Positions 7,545-22,454 of a DNA stretch of 50,382 bases are shown here, piece after piece. Source of the DNA: Planctomycetota bacterium. Its GTDB lineage: Bacteria; Planctomycetota; UBA1135. The notes beneath the pieces were generated by a model, which was given only the letters and a program-made list of their open reading frames with translations, searched no databases and was not told the origin of the DNA. Location: contig JASMKM010000014.1 of the NCBI GenBank assembly GCA_030749235.1, positions 1-50,382 on the forward strand, given 5' to 3'. Every line of letters begins with the position of its first letter. The first letter of the stretch is position 1. The translations under genes were made by a program, and so were the position numbers.

Positions 7545-9818
7545 GTGCGTGATCCCCTCCATTGGCTTTCGATCCGCTACAAGCTGGCTTTTGGCTTTGT
7601 CGGTCTGTGCCTGATCGCCTTCGGTGTTGGCGGTTACTTCATATCGCAGGTTGCCAAGGGCACGCTGGAGGCGGAGATCCTGAAGCGCCTGGAATTTCAA
7701 AGCCAAGCCTACGCCACTGACCTGCACGCCAGTTTGGAGATGCTGACACGGCGTACCGAGGACTTCGCTTCCGACGGTTATATCCGTGACCACTTGGCGC
7801 GCATCGTCAACGAGCAGGACCAGGTCGTCGCCGACTTGTTGCGCGGCGAGTTACGTCGTCACCTGCAGGTCAACAAGCTGCCGTTGGAAGCCGCTTTCAT
7901 GGACCTCACCGTAGTTGATGCGGTCGGCTCCGTCGTCGTCGCCCTGGCTGACGAGAGCAGCAGGAACGCGCGCGACTTGGCTTTGTGGTCGAAGGATCAA
8001 CCGACCTCCATGACTAGCAACGTGTTCGCCGACCCCCAGGACGGTTCGGCTGGACTAGTAATCTCCACGCCAGTCTATGGTCTTCTTTCGGGCAAACCGA
8101 TCGGACGCCTGTTGGCCAAGGTGCGCGCTGGAATTTGGATCTCGCGCGCCATGCAGACTGATCGCCTTGGACGTAATCGCACCGTCGAGGACGTGCGCCT
8201 ACGCCTGAACGACACCGCCGGCGGCTGCCTGCTGGTGCCAACCACCTTCCTGAACTACACCGGACCCGCCGAGTCCACCCTGCCGATCCTCGAAGGCCGT
8301 GGCCTTGAGGTTTTACCACCCGGCCAGGAGGGAGTCATCGATGAGGATGGCGACGACGATGGTCGAATCTACAGTCAGCGCTTCCCGATTGGTGGCAGTG
8401 GATGGGAAGCTGAGGTGCGAATCCGCGCCAGCCGCGCACTGGCGCCGGTATCGGGCTTGCAGAGTGAGTTCCTGATTGTCGGCGGCTTGCTGGCGGTGTT
8501 CTCCTTGATGCTGCTGTACTTCCCGATGCACTTTCTGGCACGCCCCTTGGTGATGTTGCGTCTTGCTGCCTTGCGCATCCGCGAAGGTGATTTTTCGGCG
8601 CGTGTCGACGTGAGCACCGAGGATGAGATAGGGGACTTGGGACGTGCCTTTAACCTGATGGCCGAGGCGGTCGAGAATAACACCACCGCCTTGGAGGGTG
8701 CCGCCAAGGATCTCAAGGAGCGCCAAGCCGAGGTCCAGGCCCAGCGTGACCGCTTGGAGCGAGTGATTTCGACAATGCGAGATGGCCTCGTGGTGGTTGA
8801 TCATCACGGTCGTGTTTTGTTGTCGAACCACGCCGCCGGCCCCTTGTTGGAGCTACTGCCGGACTCCCAATCCTTGGGTAAGTCACGACCGGAATCGAGC
8901 CCAGTGCGACGTCAATGTTCGCGCGATCAGATGCTCAACCATGATGGCGCCCAAGGTTGTGGCGAGTGTCTGATGGACAACAAAGCCGGCCCACATTCCT
9001 GCACCTTGGAGTTCGGCAAGATGGTCCTTGAAGTGCACGCCACGCCCTTGCCGCTGGGCACCAACGGTCATACCGGTCGCATCCTGGTGGCGCGCGACGT
9101 CACCTTGCGAGTGGCCCGCGATGAGAGCGAGAACCACCAGGAGCGTCTGGTGGTGCTCGGCGAGGTGGCTGCCACCATGGCGCATGAGTTGAACAACCCG
9201 TTGGCCTCGATCAGCATGTTCAATCAGATGATGGAGGCTAAGCTGCCGAAGGATTCCGAGCTGCTAGAAAACGTCGATGTGATTCGCCGCAATACTCAGA
9301 CCTGCAAGAGCGTAATCTCGGAGCTGCTGAACTATGCGACCACCGCCGCACCGGAAAGCGGTCTGGTGGACATCCATGGCATCTTGGAGGATGCCAGCCG
9401 CTTCCTGCGCCCATTGGCGGAGCGTCGCAGCGTCGAGTTTGAATGGCAGCTTGATGCCGAGGCCGTCGAGGTTCGGGGCGATGAGGTGCAGCTGCGCCAG
9501 ATTTTCGTGAACCTTGTCATCAACGCAATCCAGGCAGTGGAAGGTGGCGGCATCGTTACTCTCTGCAGCATGCAACAAGGCGACATGCTGCTAATCGACG
9601 TGCGCGACACCGGTTGCGGTATCCCTAAGGAGCAGCAGGCCGACATCTTCCGTGCTTTCTTCACCACCAAAGCCCATGGCGAAGGCACTGGTCTCGGCTT
9701 GCCTACCGCTAATCGTATCGCCGAATCGCATGGCGGCGGTATCGAGCTGCTCGAGAGTTCTGCGCAGGGCACCTGTTTCCGCGTACGCCTACGCCTAGCC
9801 ACGGAGACCGTAGTCTGA
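7545..9818 (+). CDS. Membrane sensor histidine kinase with HAMP and Cys-cluster PAS domain
   Basis: The protein has 757 residues: TM1 (~14-36), a large extracytoplasmic sensor region (~37-305), TM2 (~307-331), HAMP (~332-385), a coiled linker, a PAS domain (~405-520), HisKA with phosphoacceptor His547 (MAHELNNP) and an HATPase domain (N-box Asn656/Asn660, DTGCGIP, GEGTGLGL). The PAS domain carries Cys458, Cys472, Cys475 and Cys486 in a C-x13-C-x2-C-x10-C pattern, suggesting a metal or redox site. Its stop codon shares a base with the start of the NtrC-type regulator (TGATG), so the two are a cognate pair. Given the sigma-54 promoter of the adjacent nar operon, the signal may be nitrate, nitrite or redox state; that is inference. 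Confidence 0.92.
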   Translation: MRDPLHWLSIRYKLAFGFVGLCLIAFGVGGYFISQVAKGTLEAEILKRLEFQSQAYATDLHASLEMLTRRTEDFASDGYIRDHLARIVNEQDQVVADLLRGELRRHLQVNKLPLEAAFMDLTVVDAVGSVVVALADESSRNARDLALWSKDQPTSMTSNVFADPQDGSAGLVISTPVYGLLSGKPIGRLLAKVRAGIWISRAMQTDRLGRNRTVEDVRLRLNDTAGGCLLVPTTFLNYTGPAESTLPILEGRGLEVLPPGQEGVIDEDGDDDGRIYSQRFPIGGSGWEAEVRIRASRALAPVSGLQSEFLIVGGLLAVFSLMLLYFPMHFLARPLVMLRLAALRIREGDFSARVDVSTEDEIGDLGRAFNLMAEAVENNTTALEGAAKDLKERQAEVQAQRDRLERVISTMRDGLVVVDHHGRVLLSNHAAGPLLELLPDSQSLGKSRPESSPVRRQCSRDQMLNHDGAQGCGECLMDNKAGPHSCTLEFGKMVLEVHATPLPLGTNGHTGRILVARDVTLRVARDESENHQERLVVLGEVAATMAHELNNPLASISMFNQMMEAKLPKDSELLENVDVIRRNTQTCKSVISELLNYATTAAPESGLVDIHGILEDASRFLRPLAERRSVEFEWQLDAEAVEVRGDEVQLRQIFVNLVINAIQAVEGGGIVTLCSMQQGDMLLIDVRDTGCGIPKEQQADIFRAFFTTKAHGEGTGLGLPTANRIAESHGGGIELLESSAQGTCFRVRLRLATETVV

Positions 9819-11254
9819 TGAGTCTCGACCGTTCCAAACTGGATATCTCGCAACTGCGTGTCCTGATCGTCGACGATGAAGCCGACCTCCGCCTCGGCTT
9901 GATGCGCTTGGTCGAAACCCTTGGCATTAAAGCGCAGCAGGCCGCTGACGGTCGCGAAGCTCTTGCCGCCTTCGATCAGCAGGAATGGGACCTAGTCCTG
10001 ACCGACCTGATGATGCCGGGTATGACCGGTGCTGAGTTGTTGGTCGAGATCAAGAAGGTGCAACCACAGACGGCGGTGGTGTTGTTGACTGGTTTTGGTT
10101 CGGTGCAGACTGCGGTGCAGTGCCTGCAGGATGGCGCCTCCCATTTTCTGACCAAACCCTTTGACAATCAGGATGTGTTGAACATCATCCAACGCCTCGG
10201 TTGCCAATTGCTCGCCCGACGTCAGCCGCGTGAAGTCGGTGTGGCGATGGTCGCTGAGGACCCAGCCACCCAACGCATGTTGGATCTGGTCCGCCAAGTA
10301 GCTCCGCGCCAAGTGCCGGTGCTGGTCGAAGGCGAAAGTGGTACCGGCAAGGAAGTGGTTGCGCGTGCCTTGCATCGTTGGTCCTCGGTATCGGAAGCCA
10401 AGTTTGTGGCGGTGAACTGTGCGGCGGTCTCCGACACCCTACTGGAGAGCGAGCTGTTTGGTCATGTGCGCGGTGCCTTCACCGGCGCCGACCGTGATCG
10501 CTCCGGTGTCTTTGCTGAAGTCCAGGGCGGCACCGTCTTCCTAGACGAAGTGGCGTCGATGTCACCGGCCTTCCAGGGCAAGTTATTGCGGGTCTTGCAG
10601 GAGAAGGTAGTACGCCCGGTTGGCGCGGACCGCGATATCCAGGTGAATTTCCGCCTAATCGCGGCTACCAATCGCGACCTGGAGGAACTGGTCGCTAAGG
10701 GAGAATTTCGCGAGGACCTCTACTTCCGTCTGCGTGTGGTGCCGGTTTACATTCCGCCGCTGCGCGAGCGTCAACATGACATCCTGCCCTTGGCACTGCA
10801 CTTCCTGTTGCGCGAGACCAAGGTTTGTCTGGGTTCCGACGCTCCGCCACCGGAGTTCGCCGCCGAGACCATCGAACGCCTGATGCAACATGCATGGCCC
10901 GGCAACGTGCGCGAGTTGGAGAACTGCATCATGCGTGCCATGATTGTAAGTGGTGGACAACGCATCCTGTCGCATCATCTGGGTCTGGATGAGAGCGGTT
11001 GGCGTCAGGAAAAGCAGGAATCGGCTGCAGGGGATGAGGCAATCGGCAGTAATCAAACCAGCCAGATCGAAAGCGACGATTACGCCGAAGCCAAGCGCCA
11101 GACGGTGGAGCGTTTCCAACGTGAATTCGTCGAACGTGCCTTGGAGCATTCGCATGGCAATGTTTCGCAGGCGGCGATGGACTGCGGGCTGACCCGCGCG
11201 GCCTTCCAGAAAATCCTGCGCCAGCTCGGCGTTGATCGCGGTTCCTTTTCTTAG
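9818..11254 (+). CDS. NtrC-family sigma-54-dependent response regulator
   Basis: The protein has 478 residues: receiver domain with acidic pocket Asp19/Asp20 and phosphoacceptor Asp63 (LTDLMMPG), AAA+ domain with Walker A GESGTGKE (172-179), the sigma-54-contacting GAFTGA loop (219-224), Walker B FLDEV (Asp243, Glu244), and a C-terminal Fis-type helix-turn-helix (NVSQAAMDCGLTRAAFQKIL). Such proteins activate only sigma-54 promoters, from enhancer sites upstream. The only clear sigma-54 promoter I found in the window is 0.8 kb downstream, in front of narC, making the nar operon the probable target. The stop codon overlaps, on the opposite strand, that of the convergent selenoprotein gene (11251-11254). 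Confidence 0.94.
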   Translation: MSLDRSKLDISQLRVLIVDDEADLRLGLMRLVETLGIKAQQAADGREALAAFDQQEWDLVLTDLMMPGMTGAELLVEIKKVQPQTAVVLLTGFGSVQTAVQCLQDGASHFLTKPFDNQDVLNIIQRLGCQLLARRQPREVGVAMVAEDPATQRMLDLVRQVAPRQVPVLVEGESGTGKEVVARALHRWSSVSEAKFVAVNCAAVSDTLLESELFGHVRGAFTGADRDRSGVFAEVQGGTVFLDEVASMSPAFQGKLLRVLQEKVVRPVGADRDIQVNFRLIAATNRDLEELVAKGEFREDLYFRLRVVPVYIPPLRERQHDILPLALHFLLRETKVCLGSDAPPPEFAAETIERLMQHAWPGNVRELENCIMRAMIVSGGQRILSHHLGLDESGWRQEKQESAAGDEAIGSNQTSQIESDDYAEAKRQTVERFQREFVERALEHSHGNVSQAAMDCGLTRAAFQKILRQLGVDRGSFS

Positions 11255-11805
11255 GGATTCGGCGCCATGAAGTCTTCCAAGTCCACGCCTAAACCGTCGG
11301 CCAGACGATTGACGTAGTTGAAGTAGGCTACCACCTGTGCGGCATCATGTACCTCGAGGTCGGACCAACCGGCATCTCGTAGCTGCTGCACGTCTGCCTC
11401 GGTCATCGCCCCGGGAGTGAGAGTGAGCTTCTCGGCCCAAGCGCACATCGCCCTCTCGGCTGGGGATAGGGCCGCGCCTTGCCAGCCCTTAGCCACCAAG
11501 TAATCGGCCAGCTCCTCTTCTTCACCTTCGACACGGAGGGTGAGTGCATGGGCCAGCGTTCAGTAGTGGCAGTGGTTGGCGCGGCTCACCACCACGGCAA
11601 GGGTCTCGCGCAGGCGGACGGAAAGTGAGGTGTCCTGGTGCATCACCGAGCCATAGATGCCGAGGTGGGCGAGGGTTGCTTTGGGGTTGATGCCGGTCAG
11701 TTTGATGATGTTCCAGACCCTGCCAGCGCGCTGGAACGAGTCCTGGTAAATCTTCTTGAGCAGGCCTCCGGCGGCCTCGATTTCAGTCTGTGGAATGTAT
11801 GCCAT
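11251..11805 (-). CDS. AhpD-like peroxidase-related selenoprotein (CxxU; in-frame TGA at 11562-11560)
   Basis: Two open segments on the minus strand, 11805-11563 and 11559-11251, are in the same frame and separated by a single TGA. Together they give 184 residues matching the carboxymuconolactone decarboxylase/AhpD-like 'peroxidase-related enzyme' family from end to end: PQTEIEAAGGLLKKIYQ at the start and the diagnostic VVAYFNYVNRLADGLGV near the end. The family's redox motif is NxCxYCxxxH; here it reads N-H-C79-H-Y-TGA82-T-L-A-H86, so the stop replaces exactly the second catalytic Cys. Cys-to-Sec exchange at this site is known in AhpD-like selenoproteins. A candidate bacterial SECIS hairpin follows. 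The predicted role is thiol/selenol peroxide reduction in the cytoplasm. The alternative is a nonsense mutation or sequencing error (TGC or TGT to TGA), but both halves look intact. Start ATG 11805 precedes the conserved MAYIPQ; an ATG at 11886 would add an unlikely 27 residues. It is divergent from the nar operon. Confidence 0.85.
11522..11562 (-). promoter_or_regulatory. Candidate bacterial SECIS element downstream of the Sec UGA
   Basis: Reading from the UGA (11562-11560), after 16 bases there is a stem TCACC (11543-11539) / GGTGA (11526-11522), a single C-A mismatch, a 2-bp stem TC/GA and a six-base loop CGUGUC with G at its second position. The apical loop lies 24 bases after the UGA, in the range expected for SelB-binding bacterial SECIS hairpins. 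The fold was made by eye, and the stem is short. Confidence 0.5.
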
Positions 11806-11901
11806 GGGACTTTTTTGGAGCGTTTGGATGGTAACGAGGCGCCTGTCACCCGATGCGGAGGGATCTCTGCTTACTTTTGTATGCACCCCTAAGACTTTTC
11901 A

Positions 11902-11913: not shown

Positions 11914-11985
11914 ATGACCAATTCTCAAATAGGTGCATCTTTTGGTATGCAGTGTCAGGTTTTGTAAACAAGTGGCCAATTCTAC

Positions 11986-12047: not shown

Positions 12048-12063
12048 TGGCACGCCTTTTGCT
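12048..12063 (+). promoter_or_regulatory. Sigma-54 (RpoN) promoter of the nar operon
   Basis: TGGCACGCCTTTTGCT matches the -24/-12 consensus TGGCACG-N4-TTGCW at every defined position, with GG (12049-12050) and GC (12061-12062) separated by the required 10 bases. Predicted transcription start is near 12074, just ahead of narC at 12087. An NtrC-type activator gene lies immediately upstream on the same strand. Confidence 0.85.
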
Positions 12064-12086
12064 CTTGCGCGGGCGGAGACTGAAAA

Positions 12087-12920
12087 TTGCGTTTACCCAC
12101 CCTCTTCTTAACCCCTGTCCTGCTGCTCGGAGCCACCTCGATGGCATTGGCGCAGGAGCAAGATGCTGAGCAGTATTTCAACGCCCACTGCAAGGCTTGC
12201 CACACGATCGGCGGCGGCCCGATCCTCGGTCCAGACCTAAAAGGCGTTCTGGATCGCCAAAGTCGCGAGTGGCTGGTCGAGTTTATTGTCGATCCGGATT
12301 CCAAGCTGGACAGCGATCCTTATGCGCAAGAAATGCTGGCGGCGACGCCTGGTGGTGCGGTGCGCATGATCTCGATCCCAAGCATGACTCCGCTGATCGC
12401 CAACTCGCTGCTCGATTACATCGTGGCGAAGTCCGGTGGCGACGCAGGCCCGGTTGCTCCAACCGAAGAGTTGCTGCCCTTCACCGCCGAACAACGCGAG
12501 CTCGGCATGAAGTACTTTACCGGTGAAGAGCCTTTCCGCGCTGGCGCTCCTTCATGCTCCTCTTGCCACACCACTGCCGGTCTCGGCGCTTGGGGTGGTG
12601 GAGCGCTAGGCCCGGACTTGACCCAGGTGATGTCCCGCCTCGGTGGCCGCGTCGGCCTTACCGGTTGGCTTGCCACCCCAGCATCCTTGACCATGCAGCC
12701 CGTGTTCAAGGATCACAAGCTCATACCGGAAGAGATTGACGCCCTCGTCGCCTTCCTGGAGAGCGAGAGTGAGAACACCGAGGACGCCCCATCCGTCACG
12801 GCCTCCTTCCTCGGCGTGGGTGTGATTGTCGCGATTGCAATCCTCGCCCTGTTCGGCTTCCTCTGGAAAGACCGATACACCGCCACCCGTATCCCGCTGG
12901 TGGAGAAATCGAAGCGATGA
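12087..12920 (+). CDS. narC: Membrane-anchored di-heme cytochrome c (NarC-like)
   Basis: This periplasmic electron carrier of the nitrate respiratory chain has 277 residues: a signal peptide (1-22, GATSMALA), two c-type heme motifs CKACH (35-39) and CSSCH (157-161), and a C-terminal transmembrane anchor (~240-260) with a short cytoplasmic tail. The two heme domains are related to each other (both continue with GPDL), suggesting internal duplication. A di-heme cytochrome as first gene of a nar operon is the Thermus narC arrangement, where it is needed for nitrate reductase assembly and electron delivery. The TTG start is supported by GGAG nine bases upstream. Its TGA overlaps the narG start (ATGA), so translation is coupled. 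Confidence 0.85.
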
Positions 12921-15900
12921 ATACCGAAAATTCCCTTTCCTGGATCCAAGATTCTTCCGAGCCAGAAACCCGCGCTTGGGAGGAGTTCTACCGCAACCGT
13001 TGGCAGTACGACAAGGTCGTGCGCTCCACCCACGGCGTCAACTGCACCGGCTCCTGCTCCTGGCAAATCCACGTCAAGGACGGGATCGTCACTTGGGAGA
13101 TGCAGGCGGTTGACTATCCGTTGATCGATAAGGAGATTCCACCGCACGAACCTCGCGGTTGTCAGCGTGGCATCTCCTACAGCTGGTACCTCTACAGCCC
13201 GTTGCGTGTCAAGTACCCATACGTACGTGGCGCTCTGCTCGATTTGTGGAAAGATGCCAAGGCCGAGAACAACGACGACCCGGTCGCTGCTTGGAAATCG
13301 ATCCAGGCCGATCCGGTCAAGCGCGAGCGTTATCAGCGCGCCCGCGGTAAGGGCGGTTTCCGCCGCACCACTTGGGATACATCCAAGGAGATCATCGCGG
13401 CTTCCGCGGTGCACACCATCCAGGACTACGGCCCGGACCGCATCGCCGGTTTCTCGCCGATTCCGGCCATGTCGCAGATCTCCTACGCTTCGGGCGCACG
13501 CATGCTGCAGCTGATGGGTGGCTTGGCACTGTCCTTTTATGACTGGTATTGCGATTTGCCTTGCGCCAGCCCTGAAATCTGGGGCGAGCAGACCGACGTC
13601 AACGAGTCGGCCGACTGGTACAACGCCAAGATGCTGGCAGTCATGGGGGCGAACCTCAACATGACTCGCACTCCTGACGTGCACTTCGCTGCCGAAGCGC
13701 GCCATAACGGCACAAAGATGGTGGTGTTCGCGCCTGACTTCAACCAAGTTGCCAAGTACGCGGATGAGTGGGTCTCCCTCAACGCCGGACAGGATGGCGC
13801 ATGGTGGATGGCCGTCACGCATGTGATCCTGACCGAGTTCCATCACCAGCGCCAAGTGCCTTACTTCATGGAGTATGGCCAGAAATACACCGACGCACCT
13901 TTCCTCGTCGAATTGACCGAGGGTGAAGGTGGTTGGGAAGCCGGCCAGATGTTGCGCGCCAGTCGCCTAGCCGGTTACGTCAATGAAGAGAATGGTGAGT
14001 GGAAGTTCCTGCAATGGGACAAGAACGACAACCGTCCGAAGATGCCGATGGGTACTTCCGGCTATCGCTGGGGGAAACCAGGACAGTGGAACTTGCTACC
14101 AAAGGACGGCAAAGATGGATCTGACATCGACGCGGAAATGACCTTCTTGGAGTCGCATGAAGGTGAAGTACAAGTCCGTCTCGATGACTTTGCAGAAGGC
14201 GAATCACGTTATCGCGGCGTTCCTGTACGCACCATCGATACCGCCGACGGCAAGAAGGTGACGGTCACCACCGTCTACGATCTGCTGATGGCGCAGTTTG
14301 GCGTGAATCGCGGCCTCGGCGGCGAGTACCCGAATAGCTACGATGATGACGCGGTCTACACTCCGGCATGGGGTGAGCGCTACACCGGCATCGCACGCAA
14401 GAACATCATCAAGTTCGCACGCGAATGGGCCAGCACTGCCGAACACACCAACGGCAAGTGCACCGTAATCATCGGCGCCGGTATCAACCACTGGTATCAC
14501 GGCAACCTGATGTACCGCGCGGCGATTCAATCGCTGATGTTGTGCGGTTGCGTCGGCGTCAATGGTGGTGGGTTAGCTCACTACGTAGGTCAAGAGAAGC
14601 TGGCTCCTGGCGAGCCTTGGGGCAACATCGCATTCGGCAAGGACTGGGTCCCTGCCTCGCGCCTGCAGAACGCTCCTTCCTGGCACTACGTCAACACCGA
14701 CCAGTGGCGCTACGAGCGCACCTTCGCCGATTACCACACGGTGCCGCCGAACCAGCCCGAGAACAGCTTGGCCGTCGGTCACACCATCGACGCCAACATC
14801 CGTGCGGTCAAAAACGGTTGGTTGCCGTTTTACCCGCAGTTCGATCGCTCCTCGATTAAGTTGGTCGACGATGCGCGCGCCGCAGGTGCTTCTGATGAGG
14901 CGGGCGTCGTGAAGTATGCGGTCGACAGCCTCAAGGACAAGTCGATGAAGTTCGCGATCGAGAAGCCTGACGCTTCCGAATGCTGGCCTCGTCTGTGGTT
15001 CATCTGGCGCGGTAACGCGCTGATGAGTTCCGCCAAGGGTCATGAGTACTTCCTCGACCACTACCTCGGAACCCACAACAACAAGATCGCGACCGAGATC
15101 GCCGAAGGCCACACCAAGTCGGTGGAGTTCCTGAAGGAAGCCCCGAAAGGCAAGATGGACTTGGTGGTCGACCTGAACTTCCGAATGGATACTTCGGCGT
15201 TGTACTCCGACATCGTGCTGCCGGCGGCGACCTGGTACGAGAAAGATGACATCAACACCACCGACATGCATGCTTACGTGCACCCACTGTCGGAAGCTGT
15301 CCCTCCTTGTTGGGAATCGAAGTCCGACTGGGACATCTTCGGTGAGATTTCGAAGGCTTTCGCCGAGCTGGCCGAAGTGCACTTCCCCGATGGCGTCGAC
15401 GACCTAGTTGCCACGCCACTGGCGCACGATACTCCTGCCGAGATTTCGCAGACGCAGATGCTCGATTGGGATAAAGACGAGGTCGACGCCATCCCCGGCA
15501 AGACCATGCCCGGCATGAAACTGGTCCATCGCGACTACAAGAACCTATACAACATGTATACGTCCTACGGTCCGCTGGCTCGCGAGAACGGCATCGGCGC
15601 GCACGGCACGCACTACATGATCGACGACTTCTACGATGAGATGGTCGAGCATGGCAAGGTTTCGCAGTGGGAGGGCAAGAAGTACCCCGCACTGAAGACC
15701 GGCAAGCAGGCCGCCGACGCGATCCTCAACCTGGCTTCAGTCACCAATGGCGAGCTGGCCTATCGCTCCTACAAGAATATGGAGAAGAAGGTCGGCCTGC
15801 CGCTCGCCGATGACCTGGCCGGTGGCGACCGCCACGTGCGGATGACCTTCAACGACATCCAGTCGCAACCACGTCGTCAGCACAACTCGCCGATGTGGTC

Positions 15901-16561
15901 GGCGGTAATCAACTCCGGAAGGGCCTACTCGCCATTCTCCTACAACGTCGAGAAGATGGTGCCATGGCGGACTTTGACTGGTCGTCAGCACTTCTACCTT
16001 GATCACCCTGGTTACATCCAGTTCGGTGAACATTTCCCGACCTACAAGCCGAAGCCGCTGCCTGCTGAGTACGGCGACATGCGAATCAGCGAGCGCGACA
16101 GCAACACGCTGTGCCTCAACTACCTTACCCCGCACGGCAAGTGGCACATCCACTCGACCTACGGCGATAACCATCGCATGACGACTCTGTCGCGTGGCGT
16201 CGAGCCGTTTTGGATCAACGACAAGGATGCGGCCTCAATCAACATCAACGATAACGATTGGGTCGAGGTGCACAACGACCACGGCGTCGTCGTCACACGC
16301 GCCAGCGTTAGTGCCCGTATCCCACGGGGCATCTGCATCATCTACCACTCGCCGGAACGAACCTTCTCAGTTCCGAAATCACCGTTGCGCGGCAATCGTC
16401 GCGCTGGCGGCCACAACAGCCTCACGCGCACGCGCCTGAAGCCCAGTCACATGGTGGGTGGCTACGGCCAGTTCACTTACCACTTCAACTACTGGGGACC
16501 GATCGGTTGTAACCGCGACACCCACATCCTCGTCCGCAAGCTCCCTGAGCTCGTCTGGTAA
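12917..16561 (+). CDS. narG: Respiratory nitrate reductase alpha subunit NarG
   Basis: This is the catalytic subunit, binding bis-MGD molybdenum cofactor and the FS0 4Fe-4S cluster, and reducing nitrate to nitrite on the cytoplasmic side. It has 1214 residues, close to E. coli NarG (1247). FS0 ligands are visible as His39, Cys43, Cys47 ([12 protein letters not shown]) and Cys82 (RGCQRG). The Mo-ligand Asp lies in FYDWYCDLP (Asp213), followed by the diagnostic [15 protein letters not shown]. There is no Tat signal, unlike archaeal-type NarG, so the subunit should face the cytoplasm. The NarG-type motif and the following narHJI genes argue against a periplasmic nitrite oxidoreductase. The gene is complete, with no frameshift. 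Confidence 0.97.
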
Positions 16562-16587: not shown

Positions 16588-18075
16588 ATGGAAGTCCGTT
16601 CACAAATCGCGATGACGTTCCACTTGGACAAGTGTATCGGTTGCCACACTTGCAGCATCGCCTGCAAGAACATCTGGACCGATCGCCAAGGTACCGAGTA
16701 TATGTGGTGGAACAACGTCGAGACCAAGCCGGGTACCGGATACCCGACGCGCTGGGAAGACCAGACCAACTACAACGGTGGTTGGGAACTGCAGAATGGC
16801 AAGTTGCAGCTCAAGTCAACGAGCCGCAGCAAAATCGTTCCTAACATTTTCCACAATCCGTCCATGCCCACCATGGATGATTACTACGAGCCCTGGACCT
16901 ACAAGTATCAGGAGCTCTTCGATGCGCCGGAAGGCGACGACCAGCCTACCGCACGGCCAATCTCTATGGTCACCGGTGAGCACATCGACATCGAGGCGGG
17001 ACCGAACTGGGATGACGACATGTCGGGTTCCCCGGTCTACGCCGAGAACGACCCCAACCTTGACGCCTTGTCGGCCGACGTGCGTCAGCAGATGTTCGAG
17101 ATCCAAAGGCTCTCGTTCTTTTATCTGCCGCGCATGTGTAACCACTGTTTGAACCCCGCCTGTGTGGCATCGTGCCCATCGGGCGCCTTGTACAAGCGTG
17201 GTGAAGACGGCATCGTGCTGGTTAACCAACAACGTTGTCGCGCTTGGCGCTCCTGTATCGCCGCTTGCCCATACAAGAAGGTTTACTTCAACTGGTCGAC
17301 TGGCAAGTCCGAGAAATGCATCCTGTGCTACCCGCGCCTTGAAACCAAGCAGCCACCGGCTTGCCACCACTCATGCGTCGGCCGGATTCGTTACTTGGGC
17401 AACGTGCTCTATGACGCCTCGCGCATCGAAGAGGTCGCCAGCGTACCAAAGGAACAACTAATCGAGGCGCAGCGCAGTCTGATTCTGGATCCGAACGACC
17501 CAGAGGTCATCAAGGCAGCCAAGGAGAATGGCATCCCTGACGGCGTAATCACGTCAGCGCAGGAGTCGCCGGTCTACCAGTTCGTCAAGAGTTGGAAACT
17601 GGCGGTGCCGCTGCACGCCGAGTTCCGTACCTTGCCGATGTTGTTCTACGTCCCACCGCTTTCGCCGGTGATGTCGGGCAGCGACGGTGACATAACCTCC
17701 AACGAGACCGAGGACCTGTTCCATGAAATCAAGGAATCGCGCGTACCGATTCAATACATGGCCGAAATCCTGGGCACGGGTGCTACCGCTCCGGTCGAAT
17801 ATGCGTTGCGCAAGCAGTTCGCCGTCCGCATGTACCGTCGTCAACTGACGGTGGGGGATGTCGATGAGGCCACTGCGGATCGCGCCTTGTTCGAGGCCGA
17901 CTGCACCCGCGAAGAAGCCGAGGCAATCTACCGTCTCACTTCGCTGGTTAAGTACGAGGACCGTTTCGTCATTCCGCCGGCCCAACGCGAGCAGGCCATC
18001 GAGATGATTAAGGACCCGCTCGACCACAAGCAGAGCACCGGCTTCGGCTTCAGTAGCCCACCGATGAGGGTGTGA
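16588..18075 (+). CDS. narH: Respiratory nitrate reductase beta subunit NarH
   Basis: This electron-transfer subunit links the NarI hemes to NarG through three 4Fe-4S clusters and one 3Fe-4S cluster. It has 495 residues with four cysteine groups: Cys16/19/22/26 (CIGCHTCSIAC), Cys184/187/192/196 (CNHCLNPACVASC), Cys217/223/227 (CRAWRSCIAAC) and Cys244/247/259/263. In the third group Trp220 occupies the usual second-Cys position, the classic NarH signature of the 3Fe-4S cluster. A good ribosome binding site (AGGAG) precedes the ATG. The stop overlaps a possible narJ GTG start. Confidence 0.97.
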   Translation: MEVRSQIAMTFHLDKCIGCHTCSIACKNIWTDRQGTEYMWWNNVETKPGTGYPTRWEDQTNYNGGWELQNGKLQLKSTSRSKIVPNIFHNPSMPTMDDYYEPWTYKYQELFDAPEGDDQPTARPISMVTGEHIDIEAGPNWDDDMSGSPVYAENDPNLDALSADVRQQMFEIQRLSFFYLPRMCNHCLNPACVASCPSGALYKRGEDGIVLVNQQRCRAWRSCIAACPYKKVYFNWSTGKSEKCILCYPRLETKQPPACHHSCVGRIRYLGNVLYDASRIEEVASVPKEQLIEAQRSLILDPNDPEVIKAAKENGIPDGVITSAQESPVYQFVKSWKLAVPLHAEFRTLPMLFYVPPLSPVMSGSDGDITSNETEDLFHEIKESRVPIQYMAEILGTGATAPVEYALRKQFAVRMYRRQLTVGDVDEATADRALFEADCTREEAEAIYRLTSLVKYEDRFVIPPAQREQAIEMIKDPLDHKQSTGFGFSSPPMRV

Positions 18076-18077
18076 CC

Positions 18078-18611
18078 ATGAGTGTCGATTGCAAGGTCTA
18101 CGACGCGCTTTCGCGCTTAATCGGCTATCCACGTGCAGGTTTTGGGGAAGCCTGCGAAGAGTGGGTGTCGATCGTGCGCGAACAGTCCCCCAAGGCGGGT
18201 GAAATCCTCGACGAGTTCCAGGCATTCCTGGCGACCCATTCGGTCGAAAAGCTTGAGGAGTTCTACACCCGCACCTTCGACAACAGCCAATCGGCCGCAT
18301 TGGAGATTGGCTGGCACCTGTTCGGCGAATCCTACGAGCGTGGAGCACACCTAGTGCACATGCGTTCGTTGTTGCGCGAACTGGATATCGAAGAAGGTGG
18401 TGAGTTACCTGATCACCTCAGTAGCGTCCTGGCGATTTTAGCTCGCTGCGATGCGCCCCTGGCCCGCAGCATGGCAGAAGAGATGGTCGAACCGGCCGTC
18501 AAAAAAATCTGCATCAGCCTGGCCGCCGACCAAAACCCATACGAATCGGTGCTGGACGCCGTTCTCGAAATCATCAACCTACACGTCCAGGAAACCAACG
18601 GCTGTATCTGA
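18078..18611 (+). CDS. narJ: Nitrate reductase assembly chaperone NarJ
   Basis: NarJ is a cytoplasmic chaperone that holds the NarGH apoenzyme during cofactor insertion before membrane attachment. It is an all-helical protein of 177 residues of the TorD/NarJ family: opening LSRLIGYP, central LEEFYTRTFDNSQSAALEIGWHLFGESYERG with the conserved YxxTFD...LExxxHLxGEx pattern. It is shorter than E. coli NarJ (236). I prefer ATG 18078; a GTG at 18072 overlaps the narH stop. Its position between narH and narI confirms the identity. Confidence 0.93.
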   Translation: MSVDCKVYDALSRLIGYPRAGFGEACEEWVSIVREQSPKAGEILDEFQAFLATHSVEKLEEFYTRTFDNSQSAALEIGWHLFGESYERGAHLVHMRSLLRELDIEEGGELPDHLSSVLAILARCDAPLARSMAEEMVEPAVKKICISLAADQNPYESVLDAVLEIINLHVQETNGCI

Positions 18612-18613
18612 CC

Positions 18614-19303
18614 ATGCTCGACACCCTACTCTTCGTCGTCTTGCCATACGTGGCGCTGGTTCTTTTCTTCCTGGTGGGCATCGCGCGTTACCGCAAGCGT
18701 CCATTCAGCGTCACGAGCCTCTCCTCGCAGTTTCTAGAGAACAAGAAGCACTTCTGGAGCACTGTCCCTTTCCACTACGGAATCCTCGGTGTGCTCGCCA
18801 TCCACCTGGCTGGCTTGCTAATCCCGGACGCCATCCTGTCTTGGAACGCCGCCCCAGCGCGATTGCTGTTCCTCGAGATTACCGGTTTGGCCCTGGGCAT
18901 CATCACCCTCATCGGCCTGTTCAACTCGATTATGCGTCGCATCCGCTTGCCACGGATGGCAGTGGTGACCAACAAGTCCGACTGGGTCTTACTTACCTTG
19001 CTGATGGTGCAAATTATCCTCGGCATCTTGGTGTCGATTTTCAACGGCTGGGGTAGCTCTTGGTTTGCCTCGAGCGCATCACCTTGGTTGTGGTCGCTTT
19101 TTACCTTGTCGCCCGACGTCTCCTATGTCGCGGCGATGCCTTTGCTGGTCAAGCTTCACATCATCAACGCTTGGCTAATCCTCGGCTACTTCCCATTCAC
19201 GCGCTTAATCCACGTGCTGGTCATCCCGAATCCATATCTCTGGCGCAAGACCCAAGTGGTCATGTGGCACCGTGACCGCAAATCCGTCCGCGTGAAGGAC
19301 TAG
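18614..19303 (+). CDS. narI: Respiratory nitrate reductase gamma subunit NarI (cytochrome b)
   Basis: This membrane cytochrome b oxidises quinol and passes electrons to NarH. Its 229 residues and five transmembrane segments match the E. coli protein (225). The four heme ligands are recognisable: His54 and His64 (FHYGILGVLAIH), and His182 and His200 (KLHII...FTRLIH) with the same 18-residue spacing as E. coli His187/His205. It starts three bases after narJ. Confidence 0.95.
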   Translation: MLDTLLFVVLPYVALVLFFLVGIARYRKRPFSVTSLSSQFLENKKHFWSTVPFHYGILGVLAIHLAGLLIPDAILSWNAAPARLLFLEITGLALGIITLIGLFNSIMRRIRLPRMAVVTNKSDWVLLTLLMVQIILGILVSIFNGWGSSWFASSASPWLWSLFTLSPDVSYVAAMPLLVKLHIINAWLILGYFPFTRLIHVLVIPNPYLWRKTQVVMWHRDRKSVRVKD

Positions 19304-19341: not shown

Positions 19342-20853
19342 ATGGCTCCTAACTCAGCCAAGAAGTTCAATCCCTTCCAGTTCCTGTCGTTCAGCGGTCC
19401 CTACCGGATCCTGCACATGACATGGTTCGCCTTCTTCCTTACCTTCATGGCCTGGTTCAACATGGCACCGCTCGCCGCTGCCATGAAGGACGACCTGAAC
19501 CTGACCGACAGTGACCTGAAGGTATTGATGATCTGCAACGTGGCGTTGACGATTCCAGCACGAATCATCATCGGAATGTTGCTCGACAAGCTCGGTCCGA
19601 GGAAGGTCTTCTCTGGTCTGCTGATTATCATGTCGATTCCGTGTTTCGTGTTTGCGATGGCATCGTCGTTCACACAACTGGTCATCACGCGACTGTTTCT
19701 CGGCGTCATCGGCGCAGGCTTCGTCATCGGCATCCGCATGGTCGCGGAATGGTTTCCGCCCAAGGATGTGGGCGAAGCCGAAGGCATCTATGGTGGTTTC
19801 GGCAACTTTGGCTCGGCCGCATCGGCATTCCTATTGCCGACCATCGCAATGACCGTGTTCGGCGGCGAGGACGGTTGGCGATGGGCCATTGCGATGACAG
19901 GTGCGACCTGCTTCATCTACGGCTTCGTCTACTACGCGAGCGTCACTGATACGCCTCCCGGCAAGACCTATCATCGTCCTAAACAGTCCAGTGCGATGGA
20001 GGTTACATCAATGGCTTCCCTGTTCGGCTTAATCTTCATGCAGCTGCCGATGCTCCTGGCCTTGGGCGTGCTGGCATGGAAGCTTTTCAGCATCGGTTTT
20101 CTGCCTACCCAAGGCAAGCACGTGGTCTACGGTGTCCTCGCTGCGGTGTTCTGCTTCCAAGTCTGGAAGGCTTGGACCGTCAATGTGCCGAATATAAAGA
20201 TGGGCTACGAGGAGAACGACAAGTATGAGTTTCGCCAAGTGGCTATCCTTGACCTGGCCTACTTCGTGACCTTCGGTTCCGAGTTAGCGGTGGTCTCGAT
20301 GCTGCCGCTGTTCTTCAAGAACACCTTCGACTTGAGCCTTGAGCAGGCCGGCATGATCGCGGCGAGCTTCGCCTTCATGAACCTGGTCGCTCGTCCCACC
20401 GGCGGCTTTTTGTCCGACCGCCTCGGCTCGCGTCGCCGCACCTTGAGCTTCCTGCTGGGTGGCTTGGCGGTCGGTTATTACCTGATGAGCAGCATCACCT
20501 CGGAGTGGCCGATTCCATTGGCGATTGCCTCTACGATGCTATGCTCCTTCTTTGTTCAGGCCGGTGAAGGGGCGGTGTTCGCCGTGGTTCCACTGGTCAA
20601 GAAACGTGTGACCGGGCAGGTCGCCGGCATGGTCGGCGCTTACGGAAACGTCGGTGCCGTGTGCTTCCTCACTATGTTCAGTCTCTACAAGCCTGAGACT
20701 GCAGCGAGGAACTTCTTTCTAACTATCGCCAGTTGCGCGATCTTCTGCCTGGTCGCCTCACTCTTCCTGAAGGAGCCTAAGGGATCCTTCGCCGACCATC
20801 ACCACGACGAGGTCGAGCCTGACGGCTTCGCCCCAGCTGGAGCAACCGCATGA
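19342..20853 (+). CDS. narK: NarK-type nitrate/nitrite transporter 1 (MFS)
   Basis: This major facilitator superfamily transporter has 503 residues and 12 predicted transmembrane segments. It has the NarK/NRT2 features: FFLTFMAWFNMAPLA in the first helix and a glycine-rich nitrate signature GGFGNFGSAASAF in the middle, with a second one MVGAYGNVGAVCF near the C-terminus. It would import nitrate or exchange it for nitrite. A long hydrophilic insert sits between helices 6 and 7. SD-like AGAGGA precedes the ATG. Its last codons overlap the next transporter's start (ATGA). Confidence 0.93.
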   Translation: MAPNSAKKFNPFQFLSFSGPYRILHMTWFAFFLTFMAWFNMAPLAAAMKDDLNLTDSDLKVLMICNVALTIPARIIIGMLLDKLGPRKVFSGLLIIMSIPCFVFAMASSFTQLVITRLFLGVIGAGFVIGIRMVAEWFPPKDVGEAEGIYGGFGNFGSAASAFLLPTIAMTVFGGEDGWRWAIAMTGATCFIYGFVYYASVTDTPPGKTYHRPKQSSAMEVTSMASLFGLIFMQLPMLLALGVLAWKLFSIGFLPTQGKHVVYGVLAAVFCFQVWKAWTVNVPNIKMGYEENDKYEFRQVAILDLAYFVTFGSELAVVSMLPLFFKNTFDLSLEQAGMIAASFAFMNLVARPTGGFLSDRLGSRRRTLSFLLGGLAVGYYLMSSITSEWPIPLAIASTMLCSFFVQAGEGAVFAVVPLVKKRVTGQVAGMVGAYGNVGAVCFLTMFSLYKPETAARNFFLTIASCAIFCLVASLFLKEPKGSFADHHHDEVEPDGFAPAGATA

Positions 20854-22454
20854 GCAACCTTGAAAAGTGGGATGTCGAAGACCCGACATTCTGGGAATCT
20901 ACCGGTAAGAAGGTAGCGAGCCGCAATCTGTGGATCTCTATCCCTAGCCTGCTGTGCGGCTTCGCCGTGTGGTTGATGTGGGGCATCATCACGGTGCAGA
21001 TGAAGAACCTCGGATTCGATTTCGACCAGAGCGAGCTCTTCACGCTGACCGCCATCGCCGGTCTGACCGGTGCGACCCTGCGTATCCCAAGTACTTTCTT
21101 CATCCGTTTGGCTGGAGGTCGCAACACGATCTTCTTCACCACGGCCCTGTTGATGGTGCCTGCCCTCGGCGCGGCCTTCGCCTTGAAGGACCCGACCACG
21201 CCATTGTGGGTGTTCCAGATCTTGGCCTGCTTGTCTGGCTTAGGTGGCGGTAATTTCGCCAGCTCCATGTCCAACATCAGCTTCTTCTACCCGAAGAAGG
21301 TGCAGGGCTACGCGCTCGGCATGAACGCGGGCTTAGGAAACTTTGGCGTGACCACCATGCAGATCCTGATCCCGCTGTGCATGACCGCGGCGATCGTCGG
21401 TCCGCTGAGCGGCGACTCGATGGAGCTGACCAGCACCAGCGGCACTGTCTTCAAACGCATCGAGGCCGGCTCCCCGACCTGGCTGTCCAGCGCTGGTTTC
21501 GTCTGGATGTACTGGTTGATCCCGTTGGCCTTCCTCGGCTGGTTCAAGACGAACAACATCAAGACCGAAGCGGTGACGCCTAGGCTGAAGAGCCCATTGG
21601 TGAGCTTCGGACGTATCCTGTGGTTGCTGATCATCGGCTTTGCCACCGCGTGCGCCGGCCTGTATTTCATCCTGAAGTTCAGCGACATGACTTGGGTGAA
21701 GTGGGTGGTGCTGCCATGCGTGATCGCCGCTACCGTCATCCTGATGAAGGCGCTTTCGCCTGGCGAGATCAAGGGCAACCTCGATCGCCAGTACAAGATC
21801 TTCGACAACAAGCATACCTGGGTGATGACGATTATCTATACGATGACCTTCGGTAGCTTCATCGGTTTCTCTGCTGCCGTCGGCTTGGCCATCAAGTTCA
21901 TCTTCGGTTTCCAACACATCGAAGTGGATGGCGTCATGACCCACGACCTTGCCAACCCGAATGCACCGGCGACCTTCATGTTCGTGTGGGTCGGTGCATT
22001 CGTCGGTGCCCTGATTCGCCCGATTGGAGGCATCATCGCTGACAAGATGGGGGGCGCGATCGTGACTCAGGTCGTGGCGATTGTCATGATCTTGTCCGCC
22101 ATTGGCGTGGGTTACTACTCGATGCAGGCCTACAGTTCGGCTACACCGGAAGAGTACTTCATGCCCTTCTTCGTGCTGGTCGTAATCCTGTTCGCCGCTA
22201 CCGGCGTCGGCAATGGTTCAACCTTCCGCACCATCTCGATGGTCTTCAACCAGGAGCAGGCCGGCCCTGTGCTGGGTTGGACGTCGGCTGTCGCGGCTTA
22301 CGGTGCATTCCTGATTCCGAAGTTGATTGGTGAACAGATGAAGGCGACCACCCCTGAGATCGCCTTCTATGGCCTTGCCGTGTTCTACGCAGTTTGTGCC
22401 GTCCTGAACTGGTGGTACTACCTCGGCCCGAAGGCTGAGCACAAAAACCCTTAA
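20850..22454 (+). CDS. NarK-type nitrate/nitrite transporter 2 (MFS)
   Basis: This second NarK homologue has 534 residues and belongs to a different subgroup from its neighbour. The N-terminus continues FAVWLMWGIITVQMKNLGF, and the conserved nitrate-signature regions are GLGGGNFASSMSNISFFYPKK plus GMNAGLGNFGVT in the first half. Large polar loops follow. In the tandem NarK1/NarK2 organisation known from denitrifiers, one protein typically favours proton-coupled nitrate uptake and the other nitrate/nitrite exchange; which is which cannot be decided here. It is the last gene of the nar operon, followed by a strong terminator. Confidence 0.92.
   Translation: MSNLEKWDVEDPTFWESTGKKVASRNLWISIPSLLCGFAVWLMWGIITVQMKNLGFDFDQSELFTLTAIAGLTGATLRIPSTFFIRLAGGRNTIFFTTALLMVPALGAAFALKDPTTPLWVFQILACLSGLGGGNFASSMSNISFFYPKKVQGYALGMNAGLGNFGVTTMQILIPLCMTAAIVGPLSGDSMELTSTSGTVFKRIEAGSPTWLSSAGFVWMYWLIPLAFLGWFKTNNIKTEAVTPRLKSPLVSFGRILWLLIIGFATACAGLYFILKFSDMTWVKWVVLPCVIAATVILMKALSPGEIKGNLDRQYKIFDNKHTWVMTIIYTMTFGSFIGFSAAVGLAIKFIFGFQHIEVDGVMTHDLANPNAPATFMFVWVGAFVGALIRPIGGIIADKMGGAIVTQVVAIVMILSAIGVGYYSMQAYSSATPEEYFMPFFVLVVILFAATGVGNGSTFRTISMVFNQEQAGPVLGWTSAVAAYGAFLIPKLIGEQMKATTPEIAFYGLAVFYAVCAVLNWWYYLGPKAEHKNP

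Follow-up and report, generated by a model that had tools for sequence, protein, structure and literature searches.

The nitrate reductase operon narCGHJI-narK1K2 of this planctomycete is very likely transcribed from a σ54 (−24/−12) promoter that is switched by an adjacent kinase–regulator pair acting through two upstream palindromes. Comparison of related genomes indicates that this arrangement is conserved in many planctomycetes, unlike the FNR/NarXL control of model bacteria. Textbooks present respiratory nitrate reductase as a standard example of FNR/NarL-type control. The window, by which we mean the whole 50,382-nt stretch of DNA analysed here, represents one whole 50-kb contig of the host genome, which comprises 2.4 Mb and is ~90% complete. 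The features of the locus are the following:

7545–9818, + strand: membrane sensor histidine kinase (Pfam HAMP, PAS, HisKA and HATPase; orthologue alignment)
9818–11254, + strand: NtrC-type response regulator, predicted activator (Pfam REC, σ54 AAA+ and weak Fis-type HTH; invariant columns in the alignment)
10472–10489, + strand: codons of the GAFTGA σ54 contact loop, residues 219–224 (sequence and alignment)
11868–11885, + strand: predicted distal upstream activator palindrome TGCTTACTTTTGTATGCA, 11/12, centred 172 bp before the −24 GG
11934–11951, + strand: predicted proximal upstream activator palindrome TGCATCTTTTGGTATGCA, 11/12, centred 106 bp before the −24 GG
12048–12063, + strand: σ54 (−24/−12) promoter element (consensus match, kept in relatives)
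12074–12086, + strand: predicted leader of 13 nt with GGAG at 12075–12078
12087–12920, + strand: narC, membrane-anchored di-haem cytochrome c (CKACH, CSSCH) with a TTG start (sequence; Pfam Cytochrom_C)
12917–16561, + strand: narG, catalytic subunit of respiratory nitrate reductase (TIGR01580, 1455 bits, cut-off 1084)
16588–18075, + strand: narH (TIGR01660, above cut-off)
18072–18611, + strand: narJ (PF02613)
18614–19303, + strand: narI (TIGR00351, above cut-off)
19342–20853, + strand: narK-type nitrate/nitrite MFS transporter 1 (TIGR00886, above cut-off)
20850–22454, + strand: narK-type nitrate/nitrite MFS transporter 2 (TIGR00886 and NarU models, both below cut-off)

The products of narG, narH and narI all exceed the cut-offs of their equivalog models, identifying a NarGHI respiratory nitrate reductase, and narC is predicted to be the first gene of the controlled operon. 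The kinase and regulator genes are preceded by the molybdenum-cofactor gene moaA at a gap of 8 bp, so that the three genes are probably co-transcribed. The sequence-only reading had placed the activator just upstream of narC; the gene does lie upstream, but it is not adjacent, as the two are separated by 832 bp that contain a minus-strand AhpD/CMD-like gene (11251–11805) absent from that reading. In this peroxidase-related gene, codon 82 is an in-frame TGA that occupies the C-x-x-U position (CHY-TGA). The TGA is kept in the related locus L042, where codon differences downstream of it number 12, 12 and 38 at positions 1, 2 and 3. The genome encodes tRNA-Sec and SelB, and the gene product is a probable selenoprotein; SECIS folding of the gene returned no significant structure. 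Elsewhere in the window, three proteins of the type I phosphodiesterase/nucleotide pyrophosphatase family (PF01663; 27711–29171, 32028–33698 and 35899–37560) form a cluster that also holds a polysaccharide-synthesis protein, with an LptF/LptG-type permease further on.

The regulator combines a receiver domain, a σ54 AAA+ domain and a Fis-type HTH, the build of an NtrC-family response regulator (bEBP), with the HTH_8 match being marginal at 21.9 bits against a cut-off of 22. Its GAFTGA loop is intact, and the phospho-acceptor Asp and the Walker motifs are conserved in the orthologue alignment. An intact GAFTGA loop in an NtrC-type activator paired with a membrane kinase is what had been proposed from the sequence alone, and both proteins bear it out. 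Relatives in the PDB are NtrC4, NtrC1 and ZraR, and the regulator scores below the cut-off of every NCBIfam model for a named equivalog (NtrC, ZraR, AtoC and the others listed), the best being TIGR01818 (ntrC) with 377 bits against 559. The genome encodes five convincing σ54 activators, the regulator and four others, together with an intact rpoN, whose product ends in the RpoN box ARRTVTKYRQAL.

The promoter element TGGCACGCCTTTTGCT reads TGGCACG-CCTT-TTGCT on the + strand and agrees with TGGCACG-N4-TTGCW in 12/12 positions; GG at 12049–12050 and GC at 12061–12062 are separated by N10, confirming the perfect match and GG-N10-GC spacing reported before narC. The element lies 25 nt before the TTG start codon at 12087. 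From standard σ54 geometry we infer a transcription start near 12074, 12 nt past the −12 C. The predicted leader would be very short and begin at the GGAG ribosome-binding site, so that translation would begin almost at the 5′ end. The spacing of TTG start and leader (window 12074–12090) is identical in L042.

The exact consensus match taken alone is marginal: suggestive, and no proof. It occurs once in the window against an expectation of 0.06, and at least one exact match was obtained in 6 of 100 shuffled windows. Genome-wide there is a single further exact match (C19:37860), located within an open frame of 847 codons. In view of these shuffles and of the intragenic copy, we rejected the promoter match by itself as proof. 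Allowing up to one mismatch, the genome holds 44 consensus matches compared with 11 for the reversed control pattern, from which we conclude that genuine σ54 promoters probably exist in this genome.

The shuffles leave room for a fortuitous −24/−12 match, with nar being transcribed from a housekeeping-type promoter under FNR/CRP- or NarL-type control, and FNR/NarL control is indeed the usual rule (PMC8139620). The sequence argues against this explanation: the best match to the FNR box TTGAT-N4-ATCAA reaches only 7/10, the + strand between 11230 and 12110 holds no σ70-like site, and a CRP/FNR-type HTH above cut-off was not found in the ~90% complete genome, which yields one sub-threshold HTH_Crp_2 match. 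The decision falls to the comparative evidence, in which the σ54 element follows the regulator across families and is absent where the regulator is absent. A fortuitous match with conventional control therefore appears very improbable to us.

Among 199 related genomes searched, 27 relatives encode orthologues of the regulator at 51–88% identity. With the window's own genome, this makes 28 regulator-bearing genomes, all of which (28/28) belong to the 39 of 199 with a close NarG (hypergeometric p ~1.6e-25). Kinase and regulator genes lie immediately upstream of nar in ~22 genomes, sometimes with a narK-type gene first. In three genomes (G108, G180 and G100), nar is located several to 47 kb from the regulator on the same contig, and in three others (G131, G138 and G021) the contigs end before the arrangement can be read. 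These linkage counts are approximate, as the assemblies are fragmented.

We scored the −24/−12 element with the textbook consensus, unfitted to these sequences. Scores of at least 10/12 were obtained for 28 of 34 nar/narK promoters in regulator-bearing genomes and for 0 of 12 nar promoters in genomes or operons without the regulator. Element and palindrome occur together in 23/34 promoters with the regulator and in 0/12 without (Fisher p = 7e-5, with related promoters being statistically non-independent). G110 contains two nar operons, and the elements are found only at the operon adjoining the regulator; G158 encodes a close NarG and has neither regulator nor sites. Within the genus, TTGGCAyG and TTGCT are kept in four genomes, while the remaining upstream DNA has diverged. 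In several relatives the −12 element reads TTGAT, TTGAA or TTGTT, without the usual GC. The comparison of related genomes that the sequence-only reading had suggested as a check thus finds the element kept within the genus, in the same place across families and missing at nar promoters without the activator. With rpoN present and the pair travelling with nar across families, the comparison supports a dedicated RpoN promoter and kinase–activator pair for narCGHJI. Planctomycetes also contain a second and more distant NarG lineage, 58–60% identical (L184 in G110:C43, L182, L183, L185 and L186), which has narC and is without regulator, palindrome and promoter.

Comparing the promoters also uncovered the palindrome TGCATA-N6-TATGCA, likewise absent from the earlier reading. 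Both window copies, as predicted sites, fall within the 60–180 bp before the promoter that we set for an upstream palindromic site, and palindrome-plus-promoter composites number 2 in the real window compared with 2 in 60 simulated windows. As the palindrome consensus derives from the very promoters that were scored, only genome-wide scans count as independent evidence. Such palindromes occupy three places in the host genome, two of them the window copies; the third, a near-perfect palindrome at C13:21992, was rejected as a target because of its position within a long open frame. A scan of 49 genomes gave 11 exact copies of the palindrome, spread over nine regulator-bearing genomes. All of them lie at nar promoters or at a narK-type gene between regulator and narC, and none elsewhere.

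With one mismatch allowed, we found 8 scattered matches in 20 genomes without the regulator; regulator-bearing genomes contain ~26 at nar/kinase loci and ~15 elsewhere. Of eight one-mismatch places that were fetched, three have a σ54 site 50–71 bp downstream (scores of 12/12, 11/12 and 10/12), and each of these composites leads into a narK-type transporter. Those in G135 and G115 are located on contigs away from nar and the regulator, and that in G100 is divergent from the kinase gene. Other one-mismatch palindromes in relatives (L216–L220) have no σ54 site downstream and were set aside as background. The genome-wide scan of palindromes and promoters thus yields a small predicted regulon consisting of nar plus narK. 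The palindrome is not recognizable in L076, from the same genus and with a perfect promoter, and it is weak in L079, L089 and L093. Helical phasing of the palindrome distances was not relied on: a period of 11 bp fits (Rayleigh p ~6e-6), but it was picked from several, the promoters are related, and a period of 10.5 bp does not fit (p ~0.1).

Binding of the regulator to the palindromes is predicted, and the genome offers four further convincing σ54 activators; a different enhancer-binding protein or an unrelated palindrome-binding factor might thus act at nar, with the linked kinase–regulator pair controlling something else. We consider the chance of this slim. Palindrome and regulator have the same distribution among genomes, nar genomes without the regulator lack the palindrome despite encoding other NtrC-like proteins, and the palindrome is retained where regulator and nar are 11–47 kb apart or on different contigs. 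That the palindromes mainly serve the divergent AhpD-like gene (start 11805) instead of narC is extremely unlikely: they do lie 63–146 bp upstream of its ATG, but the window and L042 are the only loci found with this gene in the regulator–narC interval, most relatives have the palindromes without it, and no σ54 composite was found on the minus strand.

The reading we favour, a σ54 promoter switched by the linked pair, suggests the following sequence of events. The kinase would sense a respiratory cue, become phosphorylated and act as phosphate donor for the NtrC-type regulator. Once phosphorylated, the regulator would bind the two TGCATA-N6-TATGCA-type palindromes, assemble an AAA+ ring and loop to RpoN polymerase positioned at −24/−12. 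ATP hydrolysis by the regulator would then open the RpoN polymerase, allowing narCGHJI-narK1K2 to be transcribed. More speculatively, the signal may be oxygen loss, read by an Fe–S cluster on four PAS cysteines, together with a periplasmic ligand.

The four cysteines, a feature missing from the earlier reading, are C458, C472, C475 and C486 with the spacing C-x11+-C-x2-C-x10-C. They are invariant in the alignment, as is the motif R70-x2-DFASDG-x2-R81 in the N-terminal periplasmic-type region: all 25 aligned kinases (25/25) keep both, and a non-nar kinase relative in G191 is without the PAS segment. In the staphylococcal kinase NreB, nar is controlled through an O2-labile [4Fe-4S] cluster bound by four cysteines of the PAS domain (PMC4601167). 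By this analogy, we regard it as an even call whether the PAS domain is an NreB-like Fe–S oxygen sensor; zinc is the alternative for the four cysteines. The N-terminal region gives a weak dCache_1 match, which makes a small periplasmic ligand plausible, perhaps, and this is speculative, nitrate or nitrite. The R-x2-DFASDG-x2-R motif (residues 70–81, window 7750–7790) has no close Pfam match and is a possible new ligand-binding signature.

A broader proposal is a dedicated nitrate-respiration regulon across many planctomycete families, in which the kinase integrates an Fe–S oxygen signal with a periplasmic ligand and narCGHJI/narK depend solely on σ54, replacing FNR plus NarXL; we put this forward tentatively, as somewhat doubtful in its full extent. 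If true, the passage to nitrate respiration in this large and mostly uncultured phylum is under an all-or-none, ATP-driven and kinase-gated switch. The operator, the promoter and the small regulon of nar and narK are predictions that can be put directly to the test, and the kinase PAS domain is a candidate new Fe–S oxygen sensor.

The system resembles NtrBC, ZraSR, AtoSC and DctBD in (i) the domain plan of kinase and regulator, (ii) the GAFTGA loop, (iii) the −24/−12 promoter and (iv) the upstream palindromic sites, and NtrC, AtoC and ZraR are the best profile/structure relatives of the regulator. It differs from these named NtrC-family systems in its target, respiratory nitrate reductase, its operator, its four-Cys PAS domain and its position below equivalog cut-offs. 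With NarXL and NarQP it shares a membrane kinase and a response regulator controlling nar, whereas the N-terminal sensor of the planctomycete kinase gives just its weak dCache_1 match. NarL and NarP carry a GerE-type HTH and act independently of σ54.

NorR is a GAF-domain NO sensor without a receiver domain. The planctomycete regulator has a receiver domain, and its operator is TGCATA-N6-TATGCA, not GT-N7-AC, which sets it apart from NorR. NorR is alike in being a σ54 activator of nitrogen-oxide metabolism with tandem upstream palindromes and unlike in its site core GT-N7-AC and in its targets, genes of NO detoxification (PMC1274295). NreB is cytoplasmic, whereas the planctomycete kinase sits in the membrane and has a large sensor region at its N terminus. 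NreC is not a σ54 activator. Two-component control of nar and a four-Cys PAS kinase are common to staphylococcal NreBC (PMC4601167) and the planctomycete pair, where the Fe–S cluster is putative. Thermus narCGHJIKT has the same order narC-G-H-J-I with two MFS transporters and regulator genes (dnrST) just upstream, but these encode the CRP-like DnrT and the GAF protein DnrS, and control is not by σ54 (PMC6282519). At Nitrospira nxr loci, genes of a NarG-family enzyme likewise adjoin σ54-dependent regulators, but the enzyme is nitrite oxidoreductase and the regulators are of more than one kind, including a NifA-like one; a description of promoter sites was not found in the available part of the source (PMC6606698).

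A review of the transcriptional control of nitrate respiration leaves RpoN/σ54 unmentioned (PMC8139620), nar is not reported in the available part of a recent σ54 regulon survey that includes planctomycetes (PMC12316311), and a search of the open-licence literature for rpoN/σ54, narGHJI and denitrification together returned nothing. Nar control in these planctomycetes is apparently a new, previously undescribed variant of NtrC-family/σ54 regulation.
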